38,174 nucleotides of DNA from Oscillospiraceae bacterium (GTDB taxonomy: Bacteria > Bacillota > Clostridia > Oscillospirales > Oscillospiraceae), in the NCBI GenBank assembly GCA_009782435.1, contig WRJA01000014.1:1-38174 (forward strand), given 5' to 3'. Shown one piece after another: positions 4,578 through 38,174 of the stretch (its first letter is position 1; each line of letters opens with the position of its first letter). The notes under the pieces were generated by a model. That model worked only from the letters and a program-made list of their open reading frames with translations. It did no database searches and had not been told where the DNA came from. The translations under genes and the position numbers were made by a program.

Positions 4578-5132
4578 TCATTTTTTTGCTTCTCCCGCAA
4601 GCTTCGCCAATTTGAAAGCGGTGTTGGCGTTTCGCACGGTCACCGCATTATATATCGACTCATCCTTCGGAATGATTTTCGACACCCGTGTTCGGGAAAA
4701 GGTCGCTTTGGGCGCAGACCAAAAAATACCCCTGCCGTAATATGCCAAACGTTCATACTCTTCCTTGATTTGACCTATGCGGGCAACGATTTGCCGCGCC
4801 GTTGCGGGAGGAATGACGAAAAAAGCATCGTGCCGTGAATCCGGCATTTTGATCCACCATTCGGGCGCGTGAGACAATGCATCAATCAGATCGGCCGCCG
4901 GGGTCACAAAAACCGGGATGCTGATACCGAAGCGCTCTGCGATCAGACTTTCACAAGCGGGTTTGATTTCGGTTTCTTCCGAAACACTGTCAAACAACAC
5001 ATTGCCGCTGTTAATATAAGTGGTAACACTTTGAAATCCCCGCTGTTCAAAGGCATTTTTCAGGTCAGCCATTTTTATAATGTTTTTTCCGCCGACATTG
5101 ACGCCCCGCAGCAAGGCGATGTATTTCATCAT
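4578..5132 (-). CDS. DUF1697-family protein
   Basis: A 184-residue protein at the usual length of the DUF1697 family. It opens with the hallmark MMKYIALLRGVNVGGKN and continues with MADLKNAFEQRGF and TYINSGNVLFDS, the strongest family signature; DAFFVIPP and GRGIFWSAP follow. The family is widespread, cytoplasmic and functionally uncharacterised. Two adjacent ATG codons (5132 and 5129) follow an AAGGAG site, and the first is at good spacing. It is transcribed alone, convergent with the DUF169 gene. Confidence 0.85.
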   Translation of the reverse strand: MMKYIALLRGVNVGGKNIIKMADLKNAFEQRGFQSVTTYINSGNVLFDSVSEETEIKPACESLIAERFGISIPVFVTPAADLIDALSHAPEWWIKMPDSRHDAFFVIPPATARQIVARIGQIKEEYERLAYYGRGIFWSAPKATFSRTRVSKIIPKDESIYNAVTVRNANTAFKLAKLAGEAKK

Positions 5133-5256
5133 TTGACAACTCCTTATTATTTACTTCTGCTTCATCTGATATTAACACGGAAAAGCCGTGATGTCGCTCT
5201 CTTTTTTCTCTCCGGAGCATTGCCGCATTTTTTACACATATATCAGGTTTTGTTAA

Positions 5257-5589
5257 ACGGATCAACAAAGTAAATGTCAATATAGTTCACTTACGGCAAA
5301 ATGGTTCATTATCACCCGCGGGCTGTTCCGATTCAAGGTGATGGGCCGCGAGTTCGAGGCTTATCCCGACTGCTTGGTAAGCATACCGCCATACTCCGTT
5401 TTCGAACTCGAATCGCTTGAAGACGGCTCTAAGCTTTATGATTGCGGCGGCTCCGCCCGGTTATTGGATCTTTTGGAGGATTTGCACGCCTGCAGAGAAC
5501 ATGAACCGGAGAAGCTGAAGAACAAGGGATTTATTAAGCAACTCTTGCGTCAAACCGGTTGTTGGGTCACAGAATTCGGCCGCAGATAA
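5257..5589 (+). pseudogene. 5'-truncated cupin-domain gene
   Basis: The reading frame is open from the stop at 5254-5256 to the TAG-less end at 5589 (TAA at 5587-5589). Residues matching a cupin barrel begin well before any start codon: KWFIITRGLFRFKV (from about 5299), then FEAYPDCLVSIPPYSVFELE and a tail SARLLDLLEDL. The first usable starts, GTG 5338 and ATG 5341, would drop strands of the fold, and the first cupin motif is missing. In the second motif the usual metal-binding His is Phe. I read this as the C-terminal half of a broken cupin gene. A short functional protein from 5338 is the alternative. Confidence 0.5.
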
Positions 5590-5612
5590 ACCAAAAAATA
5601 TGAGGAAGCGTT

Positions 5613-6155
5613 ATGTATTTTGAAAAAGCCGGGAAAGATAACACCGACCAAACCATAGAAATCGCGCTTAAGGCGGCAAAAACGCGCGGTATAAGGCACA
5701 TAGTCGTCGCGTCGCACACCGGAGCTACGGCCCTGAAGCTTATCGGCCAGGACGGTCTCAATGTGGTTTGCGTGAGCGGCGCGAACGGAGCGCGCGAAAA
5801 AGGAAAAAACGATATGCCGCCGGATACAAGGCAAGATCTGATCTCCCGCGGAATTAAAGTCGTTACGGCGAGCCATGTATTGAGCGGCGTCGAGCGCGGC
5901 ATAAGCACAAAAGCCGGCGGCATGTATCCCGCCGAGATCATGGCCTTCACACTGAGAATGTTCGGTCAGGGCATAAAGGTTTGCGTTGAAATATCTGTCA
6001 TGGCTTTGGATGCGGACACTATTCCTTTGGGCGAGCCTGTGATCGCCATAGGCGGAACTTGGACCGGCGCCGACAGCGCCGCCGTATTGACGCCGTCACA
6101 CGCCTCAAGCGTATTTGAAACAAAAATCCACGAGATACTATGTAAGCCGCTCTGA
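5613..6155 (+). CDS. Pyruvate kinase alpha/beta-domain-like protein
   Basis: A 180-residue stand-alone protein resembling the C-terminal alpha/beta (allosteric) domain of pyruvate kinase, without its catalytic barrel. Supporting stretches are TIEIALKAAKTRGIRHIVVA, SHTGATALKL, and the C-terminal VIAIGGTWTGADSAAVLTP. Stand-alone members of this family are found in many anaerobes, and their role is unknown. The ATG at 5613 has an AGGA site and starts 23 bp after the cupin remnant, so the two were probably one transcript. A 19-bp hairpin ends the unit. Confidence 0.7.
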   Translation: MYFEKAGKDNTDQTIEIALKAAKTRGIRHIVVASHTGATALKLIGQDGLNVVCVSGANGAREKGKNDMPPDTRQDLISRGIKVVTASHVLSGVERGISTKAGGMYPAEIMAFTLRMFGQGIKVCVEISVMALDADTIPLGEPVIAIGGTWTGADSAAVLTPSHASSVFETKIHEILCKPL

Positions 6156-6291: not shown

Positions 6292-8727
6292 TTAAAACGC
6301 GTGCTCCGTGCGGGAGATTATCTCCTCTTGAACTTGGGGATTCAATTCTACCCACAAAGCGCTGTAACCCGCGACCCGAACGACCAAATTTCTGTGTTTT
6401 TGAGGGTCTTTCTGCGCGGCTATAAGCATATCGCGGTCAACCACGTTGAACTGTATGTGTTTTCCCAAATACTCTCCGAAATACGTATCGATCAGATCCA
6501 AGAACCTCTCCAAGTCTTCATCCGTCTGCATTGCCGACGGGTGGAACTTAACATTAAACAGGCAGCCGTGTATGGGCGTGTGATCGATTTTTCCCGCGGA
6601 ATTTATCAGGGCGGTCGGTCCGTTCAAATCCATGCCCTGACAGGCCGAGCAGCCGGCGTCATTTAAGGAGAGCCATGATTTTCTTCCGCTCGGCAGCGCG
6701 CCTACCTTTGCCCCCGAAGCTCCGTGGAAGCTCAAACTGTGGGGCGCGACTTCATATTTTGATCCGTAGGGCGAATCTAATTTATGGACATAATTGAACA
6801 GTCTTTTATACAGATCAACTACTATTTCATCAGCATAATCGTCGTCATTGCCGAATTTCGGCGCCGCCAACAGCTTTTTGCGCACATTCTCATAACCTTC
6901 AAAATCTGACGCCAACGCCTTAATAAGCTCATCTTTTCCGACGGATTTGTCGTCAAACACGCATTTTTTTATCGCGGCCAGCGAATCGCCCACATCCGGA
7001 AGACCGATGGGCTGCAAATAGTGAGCGGAAATCTGATAGCGGCATCCTCCTCCGAACACTCCGTCTCCCCGCTTTATGCAGTCGTCAAAAAGACTTGAGA
7101 GGAACAAATTCGGCATCTCATGGCTTCTGAATATGCGAACCCGGTTGCTGAATTCCCTTTGTATCTCAAAAAAGTACTCCGTCTGCTTCATTAAGGCGTC
7201 GACCAGATCGTCATAACTCATATCTGTCAGTTCGCCGGTTTTCGGCCCGATCTGTTTGTTCAAGCGAGGATCTCGCCCGTTGTTCAGAGTGACCTCCAAT
7301 ACTTTCGCAAAATTGAATATTCCGGGCCAAGCGGAAGGCGTCTTTGCCGGTATTCCGTGTAAAACGCAGCCGCCGATTGTATAATTCACGGCATCCTCGT
7401 GAGTGACTCCTCGTTCTTCGAAATACGGGATCGAACTCAGATCGTTGTACCAAGCCGGATAACCCAGGCCAAGCTTGTTCAGTTTCGCGGCAGCCATCTT
7501 AAACTCATGATTTATCCCGGGATGCCAGCGTATCGTAAGCGTCGGGTGGGCTGTTCGCACGTTCATGGCCGCTTCCACCCACAAAAAGCTCATTTCGTTG
7601 ACAGCGTCTTTCCCGTCAATTGTCTGGCCTCCCAGCGTTGTGTTGTGATACTGTGTCTCGCCGGAGCGGCAGTCGTTGATTTGCGTGTCCGCAAGCGGAT
7701 CATAAGTAGCGGTCTTGCTGTCGAATTGCCTCATGGACGAGCACTTGCAGCGCACGCATTCCAGCAGCTCCACAGCCAATTCTCTCGTTATCTTGCCTTC
7801 ATCCAAATCCTTTTTATAATACGGATAAAGATACTGATCCACCCGCCCGAAAGAGATCCCGGAACAGCGGGCGTCATAGAAAACGCAGATGTGACAGAAC
7901 ATCATGGTCTGAATCGCGTCATAAAAATCTCTGGCGGGATTTTCCATGATCCAATTCATCACTTCCGAAATCTTCTCAAGTTCCTTACGCCGTTTCGAAT
8001 CGGTCTCTTTTTTCGCCATCTCAGCCGCTAACACGGAGTAACGCTTGGCGAAACGTATTGATGCTTTTAAAGCGGTTTTCATCGCTCTCAGCAGATTGTG
8101 CTTTTCATAGGATGGATTGTCCAATAATCTCAGCGCTTCCAGTTCATCGTCTATTTCTTTTATGATACCCGTTATCCCTATTTTGATTACTTTTTCATAG
8201 TTCGGGACATGCCAGCCCTTTTCCAAGGAAGCCTCAGTCTCCGCGAAGAAAACCAAAGACCCTTTTTCGTTCATCGTGCACAGTTCCTTGTAAAACTCAG
8301 GTTCGAGCCAGTCCAAAAAGGACTGTTTCGCTTCCCTGTCCTTCCAGTAGTTCACAATGTCTCGGATATCGCCGTGCATATCCTCGCTTACGCGATAGGT
8401 CAGCCAGTTGTTGTCAAGAGCCTCTCCCACCCAGCGGCAATAGAGTTCGGGCCACCACTCAAAGCCCATGGGCTTCGCGGCGAAGTCTCCGCACAGCAAT
8501 TGCTCGTCGTCAATGTATATCGGCAGATTGTCCACAATATTCTCATAGGCGCGTGCGCGTCTGAATATCTTGGGCTGCCCTTCTGTTTCTCTGTATGCCG
8601 CGGTCACCAATTTTGCCCGGCTCAGAGAGAGGCCCGATTCATCACGGGCGTCGCGAAGAAAGTTCCAAATCCGTTGGCCCCGGGTTTGAGCGGCTTTTTC
8701 TGTCGGTACATTCAGTTGGTCTAACAT
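6292..8727 (-). CDS. Glycyl radical enzyme of unassigned reaction (PFL-like superfamily)
   Basis: An 811-residue protein with both ends of the glycyl radical enzyme fold. The C-terminal radical loop is RVAGYSA, with Gly787 the expected radical site. The central cysteine loop reads GGCVLHG, with Cys454 the likely thiyl residue. The dehydratase, decarboxylase and lyase members I know carry Glu two residues after the Cys (C-x-E); here the sequence is C-V-L-H, so the substrate cannot be copied from those families. PFL itself has Cys-Cys and is also excluded. The start at 8727 follows a perfect AAGGAGG. An AraC/PocR regulator gene lies just upstream, and no radical-SAM activating enzyme is in the window. 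The enzyme would be cytoplasmic and oxygen-sensitive. Best guess: carbon-source catabolism (C-C or C-X bond cleavage). Confidence 0.9.
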   Translation of the reverse strand: MLDQLNVPTEKAAQTRGQRIWNFLRDARDESGLSLSRAKLVTAAYRETEGQPKIFRRARAYENIVDNLPIYIDDEQLLCGDFAAKPMGFEWWPELYCRWVGEALDNNWLTYRVSEDMHGDIRDIVNYWKDREAKQSFLDWLEPEFYKELCTMNEKGSLVFFAETEASLEKGWHVPNYEKVIKIGITGIIKEIDDELEALRLLDNPSYEKHNLLRAMKTALKASIRFAKRYSVLAAEMAKKETDSKRRKELEKISEVMNWIMENPARDFYDAIQTMMFCHICVFYDARCSGISFGRVDQYLYPYYKKDLDEGKITRELAVELLECVRCKCSSMRQFDSKTATYDPLADTQINDCRSGETQYHNTTLGGQTIDGKDAVNEMSFLWVEAAMNVRTAHPTLTIRWHPGINHEFKMAAAKLNKLGLGYPAWYNDLSSIPYFEERGVTHEDAVNYTIGGCVLHGIPAKTPSAWPGIFNFAKVLEVTLNNGRDPRLNKQIGPKTGELTDMSYDDLVDALMKQTEYFFEIQREFSNRVRIFRSHEMPNLFLSSLFDDCIKRGDGVFGGGCRYQISAHYLQPIGLPDVGDSLAAIKKCVFDDKSVGKDELIKALASDFEGYENVRKKLLAAPKFGNDDDYADEIVVDLYKRLFNYVHKLDSPYGSKYEVAPHSLSFHGASGAKVGALPSGRKSWLSLNDAGCSACQGMDLNGPTALINSAGKIDHTPIHGCLFNVKFHPSAMQTDEDLERFLDLIDTYFGEYLGKHIQFNVVDRDMLIAAQKDPQKHRNLVVRVAGYSALWVELNPQVQEEIISRTEHAF

Positions 8728-8807: not shown

Positions 8808-10121
8808 TTATTCCGTTCCCTGAATATTTTTCTGCGAACTGTATAAATTCCTGATTTGAGAACACGTAACTCCGAAATGGGATTTGAACATCTTATAAAA
8901 GCTTCTTATCTCAACATAACCAACCTTTTTCGCAACCTCCTGTATGGGTATTTGCGTCTGTTTCAAATAATTATACGCATAATCCATCCTGACTTCATTG
9001 AGATACCACTTCATGTTCACTCCCATGTATTTCTTAAACAGTCTGCTGGCGTATGAGGTCGAAAGATGCAAACTGCGTGCAAGTTTTTCAAGGGTTATGG
9101 GTTTATCATAGTTATTTTCGATATATTCCACCATGCGCTTTACGATGGGACTTCTGATATCAAATTCACCGTAGCTTGTAATCACCACCTCCAAGAATTC
9201 ATCCAAAATCTCAACTATTTCCTCTGTGGCGCTTGCGGCTGTAATACGCTCGGGTATCGAAACGGAAATCTCAAAAATGCTCCTGAAATCGGGGGCCCAT
9301 TTCATGAGATAGGTGATAAGTCTGAAAAACGTCGTCAGCGTATTGAACCGCACCAAATATATTTCCTCATCCCGCAACGCCGGACGAAACAACCGGTGAT
9401 ACTGCTCTTTCGCCTGTATCATCCGTCCCGAATGAAGGTATGAGTAAAATCGGTGGGTCAGCTGCACTGCGGCCGATTCAACGAGCTTATACGGGTTGTC
9501 GCCCTTTTCGCCTTCAAGTATGATATTCATATAAGACAACGGATACTCCGGCGGCTCCTCTTCCTCGGCCGGGTCCTCTTCAAAGCCCGGTACTTTCCCG
9601 ATGTTGACACTCGGAAGAAAACCGGAATTAATATTTATTCTGATCAGAGAGTGCAATAAAAGCATGCTCGGTCGCATCCTGTGGCGCTCCAAAGCCGGGA
9701 TCCCTTTAAGATACCGCTCAAGCTCATCGCCCGAAATACCGAACTGTTCCCTGTAGTAATCCTTTTGCTCAAGCATATTCTGAGCGTACTCTATTGCGGG
9801 GACCGTATAAGCGACAAATATCCCCAAAAGCTTTTTCCGGCTGTAGCACGGCACGACAAATTCACCTATACCGCCGTGACATTCGGAAAAGACCGGCTCA
9901 CGTGTCTGCATTGCGCCGGACATGAGTTTGATCCGTTTTTTTTCACAGAGCTTGCAAGCGTCGGGGTTCGCCGCTATTCTCCTGCACAGCCAATTGCTCT
10001 CATCGATTTCCAAACGTAAATGTGTTTTTTCGGAATAGGGATAAAATGAGCAGTTCAGCTGTGTCAAACGTTTGAATTCCGAAAGGATTTTTTCTATGGT
10101 GCTCTCGATTTCCCTGTCCAT
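8808..10121 (-). CDS. AraC-family regulator with PocR sensory domain
   Basis: A 437-residue transcription factor. Residues about 10-165 form a PocR-type ligand domain with its cysteine cluster (SNWLCRRI, PDACKLCEKKR, FSECHGGIGEFVVPCYS). A middle linker contains an acidic EEDPAEEEEPPEYP segment. The last 100 residues are a double helix-turn-helix: ITLEKLARSLHLSTSYASRL and IQEVAKKVGYVEIRSFYKMF. PocR domains sense small molecules such as diols and often sit beside glycyl radical enzyme loci. The gene is co-directional with the glycyl radical enzyme, 80 bp upstream of it, so it probably activates that enzyme in response to its substrate. The ATG at 10121 has a GGAG site five bases upstream. Confidence 0.9.
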   Translation of the reverse strand: MDREIESTIEKILSEFKRLTQLNCSFYPYSEKTHLRLEIDESNWLCRRIAANPDACKLCEKKRIKLMSGAMQTREPVFSECHGGIGEFVVPCYSRKKLLGIFVAYTVPAIEYAQNMLEQKDYYREQFGISGDELERYLKGIPALERHRMRPSMLLLHSLIRININSGFLPSVNIGKVPGFEEDPAEEEEPPEYPLSYMNIILEGEKGDNPYKLVESAAVQLTHRFYSYLHSGRMIQAKEQYHRLFRPALRDEEIYLVRFNTLTTFFRLITYLMKWAPDFRSIFEISVSIPERITAASATEEIVEILDEFLEVVITSYGEFDIRSPIVKRMVEYIENNYDKPITLEKLARSLHLSTSYASRLFKKYMGVNMKWYLNEVRMDYAYNYLKQTQIPIQEVAKKVGYVEIRSFYKMFKSHFGVTCSQIRNLYSSQKNIQGTE

Positions 10122-10220
10122 CCGTTTCTCCGATTCAGCGCCGAATCAAAAGCAGATTCCGGCAGTTTCCGGTTTTCTTTTCCGGAAACCCCTCCCGGTT
10201 TTCATATCCGGCTTACCGGG

Positions 10221-35307: not shown

Positions 35308-35349
35308 CGTTATAATGCAGATGACTAAAAAGAGAGGATGTACCCCGCC

Positions 35350-36186
35350 ATGGAAATTATTGCAGCGATCACGATCACGGAATACGAAACAGAACTAAAG
35401 CGGGAAGAGAAGAGCAGCGCTACGATAGAAAAATATCTGCGTTACGCCAAAGCGTTCCTTTTATCACTCGGCGGAGATACCTTGACAAAAGACGCGGTCA
35501 TAACATGGAAACAAGCAGTCACGGCGCGCTACACCGCCGCCGGGGCAAACGGCATGATAACCGCCGTCAACAGCTTCCTCAAATTCCTCGGAAGGACCGA
35601 TCTGCGGGTGATGCAGCTGCGGGTCCGGCGCATCTGCATCGTCAGGCCGGAGCGCGAGCTATGCCGCCGGGATCTGGAACGGCTCCTATCCGCCGCCGAA
35701 CGCAAAGGAAAAGCTTCCCTCTCTCTCGTGATGCGGACTATGTTCGCTACCGGCATAAGGGTATCGGAGCTGCGGTATATCACGGTCGAGTCGGCGCGCG
35801 CAAAAGAGGCGGAGATACGGTTGAAGGGCAAGATACGCACGATACTTTTACCCAAAAAACTCTGCGTCCGTCTTTTACGCCACGCGATGGAGGGGAAAAT
35901 CACCTCAGGAGCGATATTTTTGTCGCGCGGCGGCAAGCCGCTCGATCGCTTCTCCGTGTGGCGCGGCATGAAGCTGTTGGGCGCGGCGGCGGGGGTGGCG
36001 AAATCAAAAGTGTTTCCTCACAACCTGCGCAGGCTGTTCGCGCGGACATTTTATCATTTCACTCGGAATCTGGCGGAGCTTGCCGACGTGCTGGGCCATT
36101 CGGATATAAACACCACGCGTATTTATACCGCCGCGACCGGCGCGCAGCTTCGCCGCCGTTTGGACTCGCCGTGTTTCCTGCTGTAA
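35350..36186 (+). CDS. Tyrosine site-specific recombinase next to an invertible segment
   Basis: A 278-residue XerC/D-type recombinase with a SAM-like N-terminal core-binding domain and a complete catalytic set: Arg137 (TGIRVSELR), Lys161 (KGKIR), His224 and Arg227 (HNLRR), His250 (LGHSDINTT) and the nucleophile Tyr259 (RIYTAA). It is compact, without the arm-binding domain of phage integrases, as in phase-variation recombinases. The gene ends 12 bp before an exact 25-bp inverted repeat, so it is very likely the invertase of that segment. The start is uncertain: ATG 35338 is directly against its AGAGG, and ATG 35350 is 12 bases away; I chose the latter. Confidence 0.9.
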   Translation: MEIIAAITITEYETELKREEKSSATIEKYLRYAKAFLLSLGGDTLTKDAVITWKQAVTARYTAAGANGMITAVNSFLKFLGRTDLRVMQLRVRRICIVRPERELCRRDLERLLSAAERKGKASLSLVMRTMFATGIRVSELRYITVESARAKEAEIRLKGKIRTILLPKKLCVRLLRHAMEGKITSGAIFLSRGGKPLDRFSVWRGMKLLGAAAGVAKSKVFPHNLRRLFARTFYHFTRNLAELADVLGHSDINTTRIYTAATGAQLRRRLDSPCFLL

Positions 36187-36198
36187 ATAAGCGAAAAC

Positions 36199-36223
36199 AA
36201 CGGACTTGACAGTCCGTTGCGTT
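36199..36223 (+). repeat. Left inverted repeat of the invertible segment (IR-L)
   Basis: This 25-bp sequence is the exact reverse complement of 36433-36457. It contains 9-bp arms (CAACGGACT, counting the base at 36198, and its complement) around an asymmetric TGAC core, the layout of a tyrosine-recombinase crossover site, and then GCGTT. As RNA it forms a hairpin followed by CGTTTT, so it may also end the recombinase transcript. Confidence 0.9.
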
Positions 36224-36230
36224 TTCGGTC

Positions 36231-36259
36231 TTAAAACTCAGGTCCGGAGCGAATATAAC
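36231..36259 (+). promoter_or_regulatory. Promoter-like element inside the switch, facing csrA
   Basis: TTAAAA (36231-36236), a 17-bp spacer and TATAAC (36254-36259) match sigma-A boxes at 4/6 and 5/6. In the drawn orientation its transcript would stop at the terminator at 36374-36404. Confidence 0.4.
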
Positions 36260-36297
36260 TGCTTCCTTAATAACGCTCTGAACCGGGTCATTAATTA

Positions 36298-36324
36298 AAT
36301 ACGTTATTTTTACGCAAAACTTTA
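36298..36324 (-). promoter_or_regulatory. Possible sigma-28-like element on the minus strand of the switch
   Basis: TAAAGTTT (36317-36324, minus) equals the -35 of flagellar sigma-28 promoters. At the proper 11-bp spacing the -10 reads AACGTATT, only a partial match to GCCGATAA. It points away from csrA now and would face it after inversion, with no terminator in between. Confidence 0.3.
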
Positions 36325-36373
36325 ACCCGAAAAACAAAATATTTTTTCGGATGAGATTTTTGTGCTCTGTTTT

Positions 36374-36404
36374 GCTCCCCGTCGCGAGGCGGGGAGCTTT
36401 TTTT
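36374..36404 (+). terminator. Intrinsic terminator inside the invertible segment
   Basis: An 8-bp stem GCTCCCCG/CGGGGAGC (36374-36381 with 36390-36397) and an 8-base loop are followed by seven T. In this orientation it stops transcription before csrA. After inversion the T tract would be on the wrong side and the hairpin would no longer terminate rightward transcription. Confidence 0.9.
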
Positions 36405-36432
36405 ACAGTCGAAGGCGGAAAACACGCGCCGT

Positions 36433-36457
36433 AACGCAACGGACTGTCAAGTCCGTT
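36433..36457 (-). repeat. Right inverted repeat of the invertible segment (IR-R)
   Basis: The exact reverse complement of IR-L over 25 bp. The match stops on both sides (36432/36224 and 36458/36198 do not pair). The csrA-side flank has AGCGATAA at 36465-36472, a partial sigma-28 -10 match, with TCAAGT inside the repeat as a possible -35. Confidence 0.9.
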
Positions 36458-36498
36458 CATCTAAAGCGATAAGATAAAAACGACGGGAGGGATACCGT

Positions 36499-36696
36499 AT
36501 GTTGGTTTTAGCGGTCAAGGAGGGCGACTACCTTATGTTCGGCGACGACATAAAGGTCAAGATATTGGAGGGAGCCGGAAAATCCATAATCGGCATAGAC
36601 GCGCCGAAGAACATCCCGGTCCTGCGCAAGTCTGTTTATGAGCGAAACGAGGGCATAACGCCCGATGAAGAGATATCGTCGGTGGACGACCTTTAA
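36499..36696 (+). CDS. csrA: Carbon storage regulator CsrA
   Basis: A 65-residue RNA-binding translational repressor. It has the family N-terminus MLVLAVKEGDYLMFGDDIKV, GIDAPKNIPVLR with Arg43 at the RNA-contact position, and YERN. The acidic tail (TPDEEISSVDDL) is longer than usual. In Bacillus CsrA represses flagellin (hag) translation and is counteracted by FliW; no fliW is next to it here, and its usual upstream place is taken by the invertible segment. A GGGAGG site precedes the ATG. It shares a unit with the flagellin gene 113 bp downstream. Confidence 0.93.
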   Translation: MLVLAVKEGDYLMFGDDIKVKILEGAGKSIIGIDAPKNIPVLRKSVYERNEGITPDEEISSVDDL

Positions 36697-36708
36697 CCTG
36701 TCATTTAC

Positions 36709-36734
36709 CCCGGACCGGAGAGTGCACATCCGGG
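36709..36734 (+). promoter_or_regulatory. First GGA-loop hairpin of the flagellin leader (candidate CsrA site)
   Basis: CCCGGA (36709-36714) pairs with TCCGGG (36729-36734), leaving a 14-base loop with GGA at 36717-36719. GGA in a hairpin loop is the core of CsrA sites. The longer loop makes it the weaker of the two hairpins. Confidence 0.45.
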
Positions 36735-36762
36735 AGGGGTTTATGAGATAGAACACATAGCG

Positions 36763-36800
36763 CCGGGTTACGGACGACCCGGAAATAAAAATTCAAGGAG
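36763..36800 (+). promoter_or_regulatory. Second GGA-loop hairpin and GGA-bearing ribosome site (candidate CsrA sites)
   Basis: CCGGGT (36763-36768) pairs with ACCCGG (36777-36782), with GGA (36772-36774) in an 8-base loop. The flagellin ribosome site AAGGAG (36795-36800) holds another GGA. This two-site layout is that of the Bacillus hag leader, where CsrA blocks ribosome binding. Confidence 0.65.
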
Positions 36801-36809
36801 TGTAGAAAA

Positions 36810-38174
36810 ATGAGGATCCAAAACAACGTACCGGCGATCAACGCCCACAGAATGTACGGCATAAATCAGACCAACATCGCAAAGTCCCTCGAGAAGCTTT
36901 CTTCCGGCTACCGCATCAACCGCGCGGGCGACGACGCCGCAGGCCTCGCGATCTCCGAGAAAATGAGGGCCCAAATCCGCGGCCTCACCATGGCCAGCAA
37001 GAACAGCCTCGACGCAATCTCGATGATACAGACGGCTGAAGGCGCTCTCCAGAGCACCCACGACATCCTGCAGAGGATGCGCGAGCTCGCAGTTCAGGCA
37101 GCCTCCGATACCAATGAGCAGATTATTGACCGCGGCGCGCTGCAGCAGGAATTCGCTGCGCTTAAAGCGGAAATCGACGACACCGCCGCCAAGACCCGTT
37201 TCAATGACCAGAACCTTATCGACGGGACTTTCCAAAAAAAGACTTTCTCACTGGGCACCGCGCTGACCGACATCGGAGCCAAGGTCAACGGAGTAAGCGT
37301 TCAGGCTGCAACAGTGGCCGGCACATATGCTTTTACAGCGGCTATAGTTGCTCCGGTTTTGGCGTCAACAACGACAGGCACTGCGGCGGCTATCAGCAAC
37401 ATAGCTGACTTCAATGCAACAGGCACCGCAGCAGAGAATGTTATTGTGACGACCGCCGCCGCTTTTACGGGCATTATGACCAGCGACCATAATAATAACT
37501 CGTATACAATAAAAGTAACAGGCGTCGGAGACGCGCTGACCATCAATCTGATCGACAGCAATAACAAAGTGGTTTCGTCAATCCAGAACGAGGACGCATC
37601 TAAGTGGTCAGGTCGCGTAGAGTTGTTCTTCAAAGGTGTTGGAACTATGTCCTTCACTCTTGACACCGCGTCCTCCGTAACTGCGGACGCGACAGGTGGA
37701 GGAGCTGTAGCGACGCTTTTGGATAATAAACAACTGAAGTTTAATGCTGCTGGCGTGACCCCCGCAACGGTTGACGCACAGCAGGGGCAAATTAAACTAA
37801 CGCTCAACGGCGAATCTGTGTTTGTCGGTAAGGGCGACACAACGGCCCGCTTTAACGACTCCGGCATCACCATCTCGTTCAAGGAAATCGCCGATCTGGA
37901 CTGCGGGTACATAGCATACAATTCTGCCGGAACTGCCAGCGTGCAAGCCGGAGCACTTACCAACGCGTTTGAAGCTACCTGCAATATCATTGTAAACGGT
38001 ATGAACGGGCAGAATTTTATCGTACAGTCCGGCGCGAATCAAGGCGACGAGTTGTCAATCAATATCGACGCTATGAACACCGCGCGACTCAACATCGCGT
38101 TCTCAAAAATCTCCACTCAAAAAGACGCCTCCAAGGCCATAACCGAAGTCAATGACGCTCTGAATAAGGTATCC
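36810..38174 (+). CDS. Flagellin, cut by window end
   Basis: The ATG at 36810 with AAGGAG upstream opens 455 codons without a stop to the last base. The N-terminal D0/D1 region is classic flagellin: MRIQNNVPAINAHRMYGINQ, LSSGYRINRAGDDAAGLAIS, and MIQTAEGALQSTHDILQRMRELAVQAASDTN. After about residue 140 the sequence is a Thr/Ala/Asn-rich variable region (about 150-410). Near residue 430 it returns to the C-terminal helical pattern (SINIDAMNTARLNIAFSKIS, then KDASKAITEVNDALN). Two cysteines (residues 365 and 391) are unusual, as flagellins generally lack Cys. The last part of the gene is outside the window. Confidence 0.95.
   Translation, partial: MRIQNNVPAINAHRMYGINQTNIAKSLEKLSSGYRINRAGDDAAGLAISEKMRAQIRGLTMASKNSLDAISMIQTAEGALQSTHDILQRMRELAVQAASDTNEQIIDRGALQQEFAALKAEIDDTAAKTRFNDQNLIDGTFQKKTFSLGTALTDIGAKVNGVSVQAATVAGTYAFTAAIVAPVLASTTTGTAAAISNIADFNATGTAAENVIVTTAAAFTGIMTSDHNNNSYTIKVTGVGDALTINLIDSNNKVVSSIQNEDASKWSGRVELFFKGVGTMSFTLDTASSVTADATGGGAVATLLDNKQLKFNAAGVTPATVDAQQGQIKLTLNGESVFVGKGDTTARFNDSGITISFKEIADLDCGYIAYNSAGTASVQAGALTNAFEATCNIIVNGMNGQNFIVQSGANQGDELSINIDAMNTARLNIAFSKISTQKDASKAITEVNDALNKVS

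Follow-up and report, generated by a model that had tools for sequence, protein, structure and literature searches.

A candidate phase-variation switch: an invertible sigma-28 promoter segment in front of a csrA-flagellin operon in an Oscillospiraceae bacterium

The DNA analysed here, hereafter the window, is a contig of 38,174 nucleotides (C14; GenBank WRJA01000014.1) from the 2.15-Mb draft genome of an Oscillospiraceae bacterium (completeness 91%). Near its right end, and all on the plus strand, a gene for a tyrosine recombinase is followed by a pair of inverted repeats, a csrA gene and a flagellin gene. The features of this locus are listed below, with positions in the window; OFF denotes the orientation in which the promoter between the repeats points away from csrA, ON the opposite one, and G104, G403 and similar handles stand for other genomes.

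35338-36186, plus strand: tyrosine recombinase, the presumed inverter of the adjoining segment (Pfam Phage_integrase, PF00589, E 3.7e-23)
36199-36223, plus strand: left inverted repeat with the core AACGGAC-TTGACA-GTCCGTT, i.e., two inverted arms and a 6-bp spacer (repeat comparison)
36224-36432, no strand assigned: putative invertible segment of 209 bp, assembled in the OFF orientation (its reverse strand aligns to the assembled strands of G104 and G403)
36298-36324, minus strand: sigma-28-type promoter directed toward the recombinase and away from csrA (same position as the complete sigma-28 promoters in relatives)
36327-36350, minus strand: A/T-rich inverted repeat, CCG-AAAAA...TTTTT-CGG, located shortly before the -35 box (shared with G104 and G403 in the alignment)
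36374-36404, plus strand: strong intrinsic terminator facing csrA in the assembled orientation, with a 10-bp stem and 7 T (terminator scan)
36433-36457, minus strand: right inverted repeat, the exact reverse complement of the left copy (repeat comparison)
36499-36696, plus strand: CsrA paralogue of 65 amino acids lacking the FliW-contact asparagine (PF02599, 60.9 bits against a gathering score of 27)
36763-36782, plus strand: leader hairpin CCGGGT-TACGGACG-ACCCGG with GGA in the loop, a predicted CsrA-binding leader (RNA fold)
36795-36800, plus strand: Shine-Dalgarno sequence AAGGAG after the leader hairpin (sequence)
36810-38174, plus strand: flagellin, cut by the contig end, with 455 amino acids present (PF00669, E 5.5e-42)

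The recombinase carries the catalytic set R141, K165, H228, R231, H254 and Y263 within its Phage_integrase domain, as is characteristic of tyrosine recombinases, and none of these residues varies across an alignment of seven relatives. Its stop codon lies 12 bp from the left repeat arm. The two 25-nt arms are 100% complementary and 209 nt apart; simple arithmetic gives a chance expectation of approximately 1e-6 exact 25-bp inverted pairs per 38-kb window. A preliminary description of this locus, made from its sequence, had named an intact tyrosine recombinase with six catalytic residues, a gap of 12 bp to the first of two exact 25-bp inverted repeats enclosing 209 bp, and csrA and then flagellin behind them, all of which is borne out by the coordinates and by the matches to PF00589, PF02599 and PF00669.

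Within each arm of the window, two shorter inverted sequences enclose a 6-bp spacer, a layout typical of tyrosine-recombinase sites. Strand exchange by tyrosine recombinases needs matching spacers within a site pair. Among seven loci compared, the spacer is identical within every repeat pair, and six different spacers occur (TTGACA, TTGTTA, TTGATA, TAAACA, TAAGTA, and TCCGTA); spacers matched in this way are therefore a hallmark of functional sites. When the two cores of a locus are compared, 24-26 of 26 positions are identical (in the window, all 20), with the repeat sequences varying between relatives. The repeats might instead be a pair of hairpin terminators of the ordinary kind or belong to a miniature mobile element, and would then undergo no inversion; each arm does fold into a short hairpin flagged by the terminator scan. 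We regard this as extremely unlikely, given that the genome holds a single such pair, that the spacers are the same within pairs and different between species, that the promoter between the repeats has opposite directions in sister species (see below), and that a recombinase adjoins the repeats wherever the contig is long enough to include it, with the exception of G092, in which it is on another contig. When as many as 3 mismatches are allowed, the 20-bp repeat core still has no further copy in the assembly of 2.15 Mb. This single occurrence, next to a recombinase, rules out a dispersed palindrome or miniature inverted-repeat transposable element, the finding that the preliminary description had set beforehand as contradicting a switch. 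As a separate observation, the G092 contig (L102) bears one more recombination site close to its end (9065-9084), a third copy in direct orientation relative to the left site, and the switch there may have more than two sites.

The closest recombinases are encoded in other genera of the same family as the window. In a comparison with other genomes, a check of the kind that the preliminary description had proposed, the full order of recombinase, inverted repeats, csrA and flagellin recurs in G104 (L033), G387 (L101) and G403 (L159), and part of it in G464 (L247), a member of another family of the order, where the recombinase, the repeats and the start of csrA are found at the contig end and the flagellin end is absent from the contig. 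The repeats, csrA and flagellin of G092 are on one contig and its recombinase is on a different one; G162 has the recombinase and repeats at a contig end. The csrA and flagellin genes of G104 are separated by a gene (L033, approximately 9324-10170) for an IS200/IS605-type transposon protein, named by eye from its translation, and this insertion may uncouple the two genes.

The segment between the repeats of the window carries a promoter and a terminator that stand opposite to each other in direction. The sigma-28 pattern TAAAG-N16/17-CGATA is present with 10 of 10 bases in 5 of the 6 segments from the window's family (P <= 0.003 each, dinucleotide shuffles), and the segment of G464 contains a TAAAG-N17-CGATA match. 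Consistently, FliA is encoded in all 6 genomes tested. The window promoter consists of a perfect -35 box, TAAAGTTT (36317-36324, minus strand), 11 nt and a degenerate -10 box, AACGTATT (36298-36305). No sigma-70 promoter was found inside the window segment, and an Rfam scan of the segment and the leader returned no match at the gathering score. The preliminary description had placed promoter-like elements and a terminator in the segment: the terminator stands, located by the scan at 36374-36397, and the promoter stands as a sigma-28 type only, with a poor -10 box. Similar hairpins followed by T-runs were read by eye in the other segments; in G104, the scan bore out a single one, at a repeat arm.

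The sigma-28 pattern is directed toward csrA in G104, G403, G162 and G464 and toward the recombinase in G387 and G092; the csrA side of G162 is missing from the contig, and the direction given for it is relative to the recombinase, from which the pattern points away. Among the individual results, the strongest comes from aligning the segments of G092 and G162, sister species of one genus, which score 28 as assembled and 157 when one is flipped, the shuffle maximum being 23. The window segment scores 17 as assembled and 44 flipped against that of G104 (shuffle maximum 23), the flipped alignment spanning the terminator region, the A/T-rich hairpin and the -35 box, and 19 as assembled and 36 flipped against that of G403. 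Because it is the flipped segment that aligns with G104 and G403, both in the ON class, the orientation assembled in the window is OFF. Overall, 14 of the 15 pairwise comparisons favour two classes, OFF (window, G387, and G092) and ON (G104, G162, and G403), several of them by margins of a few points only. For G464, the segment alignment is uninformative as to orientation and the promoter match gives ON. Such differences could also originate in assembly rather than in cells, all genomes being draft metagenome-assembled genomes. At the contig start of G162 (L115, approximately 1-120), just past the right repeat, the 3' end of the recombinase gene is present a second time in inverted form; this copy resembles a collapsed repeat path and reflects either faulty assembly at the repeat or a rearrangement of an unusual kind. 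Nevertheless, an assembly origin is very improbable: the repeats of 20-35 bp are far below the usual read length, the segments of less than 500 bp are spanned by typical short-read libraries, and the contigs that include both flanks comprise ON (G104 and G403) as well as OFF (window and G387) orientations.

The anatomy of the locus, its conservation across genera, the spacers matched within pairs and the opposite orientations between genomes lead us to propose, with a probability of about 0.86, that the locus is a phase-variation switch in which the recombinase flips a sigma-28 promoter segment in front of csrA-flagellin, and that the window displays its OFF state. A candidate flagellin phase-variation switch is also what the preliminary description had suggested, and the recurrence of the gene order in relatives and the promoter segment assembled in opposite orientations agree with it. 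The recombinase (35338-36186) would bind the two inverted sites and flip the segment of approximately 259 bp, moving the sigma-28 promoter together with the oppositely directed terminator. In the ON state, the promoter would read into an operon of the CsrA paralogue and flagellin; in the OFF state, it would read antisense over the recombinase, and the terminator would shield csrA-flagellin from read-through. We infer that the adjoining recombinase catalyses the inversion, that the promoter is read by sigma-28 and that the operon is not expressed in the OFF state. Several points weigh against the proposed switch. The opposite orientations are seen between species only, and the segments of G092 and G162 have only one flank on the contig. 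The window's own segment agrees with the full sigma-28 pattern at just 7 of 10 positions, a score that shuffled sequences equal; because of this score and the degenerate -10 box, the window copy of the promoter may be weak or decayed. Finally, no second flagellin and no Flagellin_C match was found in the window genome, the assembly of which is incomplete and has a contig break inside flagellin.

Judged by its sequence, the CsrA of this locus is a diverged paralogue, separate from the canonical FliW-linked copy. It falls below the NCBIfam equivalog cut-offs (TIGR00202, 41.8 bits against a cut-off of 70.1; NF002469, 50.1 against 73), both of which are passed by the FliW-linked CsrA of the same genome, and it shares 31-34% identity with the FliW-linked CsrAs. 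All 6 genomes checked have fliW beside a canonical csrA elsewhere, which rules out that the csrA of the switch is a replacement for fliW and corrects the preliminary description, according to which csrA-flagellin stood in place of fliW. Binding of FliW by CsrA needs Asn55 (PMC7829508). The residue at this position is T, A, A, T and R in the 5 switched CsrAs (T in the window) and N in all 6 FliW-linked CsrAs. Since the asparagine needed for FliW binding is missing, the switched paralogue appears to be FliW-blind; it retains the conserved Arg43, equivalent to Arg44 of canonical CsrA.

More speculatively, in ON cells a paralogue devoid of the FliW-contact residue would repress flagellin translation regardless of FliW, and its target would be either a separate, fixed flagellin or the flagellin of its own operon. 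G092, G162, G104, G387, G403 and G402 each have a flagellin gene that is directly preceded by a fixed sigma-28 promoter; no sigma-28 match was found between csrA and the switched flagellin. As the window contig ends in flagellin and no second one was found, the two-flagellin picture rests on the relatives. CsrA sites require GGA in a hairpin loop, and RNA folding predicts such a loop 36-69 nt before the start codon in 15 of the 16 flagellin leaders compared. The loop reads mostly ACGGA in the switched leaders, the exception being G403 C83 with AAGGA, and AAGGA, ATGGA or AGGGA in the fixed ones. As an additional feature, a GTGCACATC motif (36722-36729 in the window, with no Rfam match there) is conserved in the leader upstream of several flagellin starts, both switched and fixed, including those of L101, L102, L139, L159, L160, L189 and L191.

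If the target were the fixed flagellin, the FliW-blind CsrA of ON cells would repress its translation and the filament protein would be swapped, a phase exclusion such as that exerted by FljA in Salmonella. Such exclusion, which we hold only tentatively and at somewhat less than even odds, is favoured by the second flagellin with a fixed sigma-28 promoter in G104, G387, G092 and G403, by the GGA-loop hairpin of the fixed leader, predicted by folding in G104, G092 and G403 and seen by eye in G387, by the retention of Arg43 and not N55 in the paralogue, and by the precedent of FljA, which acts post-transcriptionally on fliC and is switched in one operon with fljB (PMC2652032). On the other hand, the leader of the switched flagellin has a like hairpin, with no sign in the sequence that the paralogue spares its own operon, and no fixed flagellin was found in the window genome. 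Alternatively, the paralogue may act as an autogenous limiter, repressing the flagellin of its own operon so that its level would be independent of FliW and the switch would turn an extra flagellin on and off. The position of csrA directly upstream of flagellin in one operon points this way, and the preponderance of ACGGA in switched leaders, against AAGGA, ATGGA or AGGGA in fixed ones, is compatible with a co-adapted site. However, the difference between the loops may mean nothing, because the switched leader of G403 C83 has AAGGA and known CsrA sites accept any base before GGA. As both kinds of loop fit CsrA sites, the leaders give no answer as to which flagellin the paralogue controls, and we rate the limiter about equally with exclusion, both being speculative.

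The closest parallel in logic is the Hin/fljBA system of Salmonella (PMC2652032; PMC9368917), in which, as here, a recombinase is encoded next to an invertible promoter segment that precedes an operon of flagellin and a flagellin regulator (the latter putative here), with a second, unlinked flagellin elsewhere (here, in the relatives). However, Hin is a serine recombinase encoded inside a segment of approximately 1 kb, whereas the tyrosine recombinase described here is encoded outside a segment of approximately 0.26 kb. Furthermore, FljA is unrelated to CsrA and encoded downstream of fljB, whereas the csrA of our locus, a predicted repressor gene, is upstream of flagellin. With a tyrosine in place of a serine recombinase, the locus is not a member of Hin/fljBA. 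Its gene content fits a flagellin operon with a candidate post-transcriptional repressor of the other flagellin. The flg switch of Clostridioides difficile, operated by RecV, resembles the locus in its tyrosine recombinase, short inverted repeats, segment of approximately 0.15-0.25 kb and flagellar output. In that switch, the leader region before flgB is inverted and acts via Rho-dependent termination (PMC7446863), whereas here the segment contains a promoter, the output is a single csrA-flagellin operon and the recombinase adjoins; the locus is thus unlike the flg switch that the preliminary description had given as an example, its segment carrying a sigma-28 promoter as the Hin/fljBA segment carries a promoter. 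The FliW-CsrA-flagellin homeostasis of Bacillus and Campylobacter likewise combines a protein of the CsrA family with GGA hairpins in the flagellin leader, but the csrA considered here is away from fliW and its product is without the FliW-binding asparagine, the canonical pair being elsewhere in the genome. A full-text literature search, with subscription papers and preprints outside its coverage, found no description of a csrA-flagellin inverton.

Relatives of the recombinase are also found at other loci. A scan of named genomes with the single recombinase as a query gave no match, and one with the recombinase alignment as a query gave 13 loci. An inverted-repeat pair of at least 14 bp, with a spacing of 202-383 bp, is located just downstream of the recombinase relative at 13 of 20 loci inspected, suggesting that this recombinase family goes with invertible segments and that the flagellin version is one use of it. 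The next genes at these loci encode mostly large, apparently secreted proteins, as judged by eye. At L035-L052, the genes for such apparently secreted proteins behind inverted-repeat segments are often preceded by a gene for a short zinc-ribbon-like protein (MRESL..YC...WWQC..GH.W). One genome, G020, contains 16 matches to the recombinase, and the genome with the G403 switch has a further recombinase of this family with its own inverted repeats (L177, Gx481_bin119; 46-990, 1008-1320, and 1385-2596), which precede an apparent family-2 glycosyltransferase gene.

Pairs of a diverged csrA and a flagellin gene like that of the window are also present in further genera and families of the order. Several of these loci have an upstream gene for a serine recombinase (in G253 complete with a Resolvase domain, PF00239) or for a protein similar to the DNA-binding end of one, and the region upstream of csrA is flanked there by short sites, inverted or palindromic, approximately 90 bp apart. 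These loci include L105 (G253; 4705-5574 and 5590-5725), L231 (G703), L232 (G609), L112 (G326) and L242 (G686), with the serine recombinase directly upstream in G253 and G703. They resemble the window in the diverged csrA and differ from it in the class of recombinase and in the sites; the same csrA-flagellin cassette is possibly under a different invertase class. The orientation comparison of the serine-associated loci gave scores near the shuffle level and was not used as evidence. Small proteins like the DNA-binding end of serine recombinases, without a catalytic domain and possibly invertase-derived regulators, are encoded directly upstream of csrA-flagellin at L106 (G028; 6852-7250), L107 (G234; 7697-8215, minus strand), L239, L240 and L235.

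A broader proposal, which we consider rather unlikely at present, is that an exclusion switch convergent with Hin/fljBA has spread through this order of gut Clostridia. In it, a sigma-28 promoter inverton would switch on an alternative flagellin along with a FliW-blind CsrA that silences the fixed one, and the cassette would have come under two unrelated recombinases, tyrosine in some genera and serine in others. If the paralogue does exclude the fixed flagellin, the fljBA logic of Salmonella would have been reached with entirely different parts, and the paralogue would be a natural CsrA that has escaped from FliW control. Should the serine-associated loci be confirmed, recombinases of two unrelated classes would operate one kind of cassette. 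Host immunity and phages both have flagellin as a main target, and a dedicated ON/OFF switch of one flagellin in uncultured gut Clostridia therefore predicts populations that would be mixed in their filaments.

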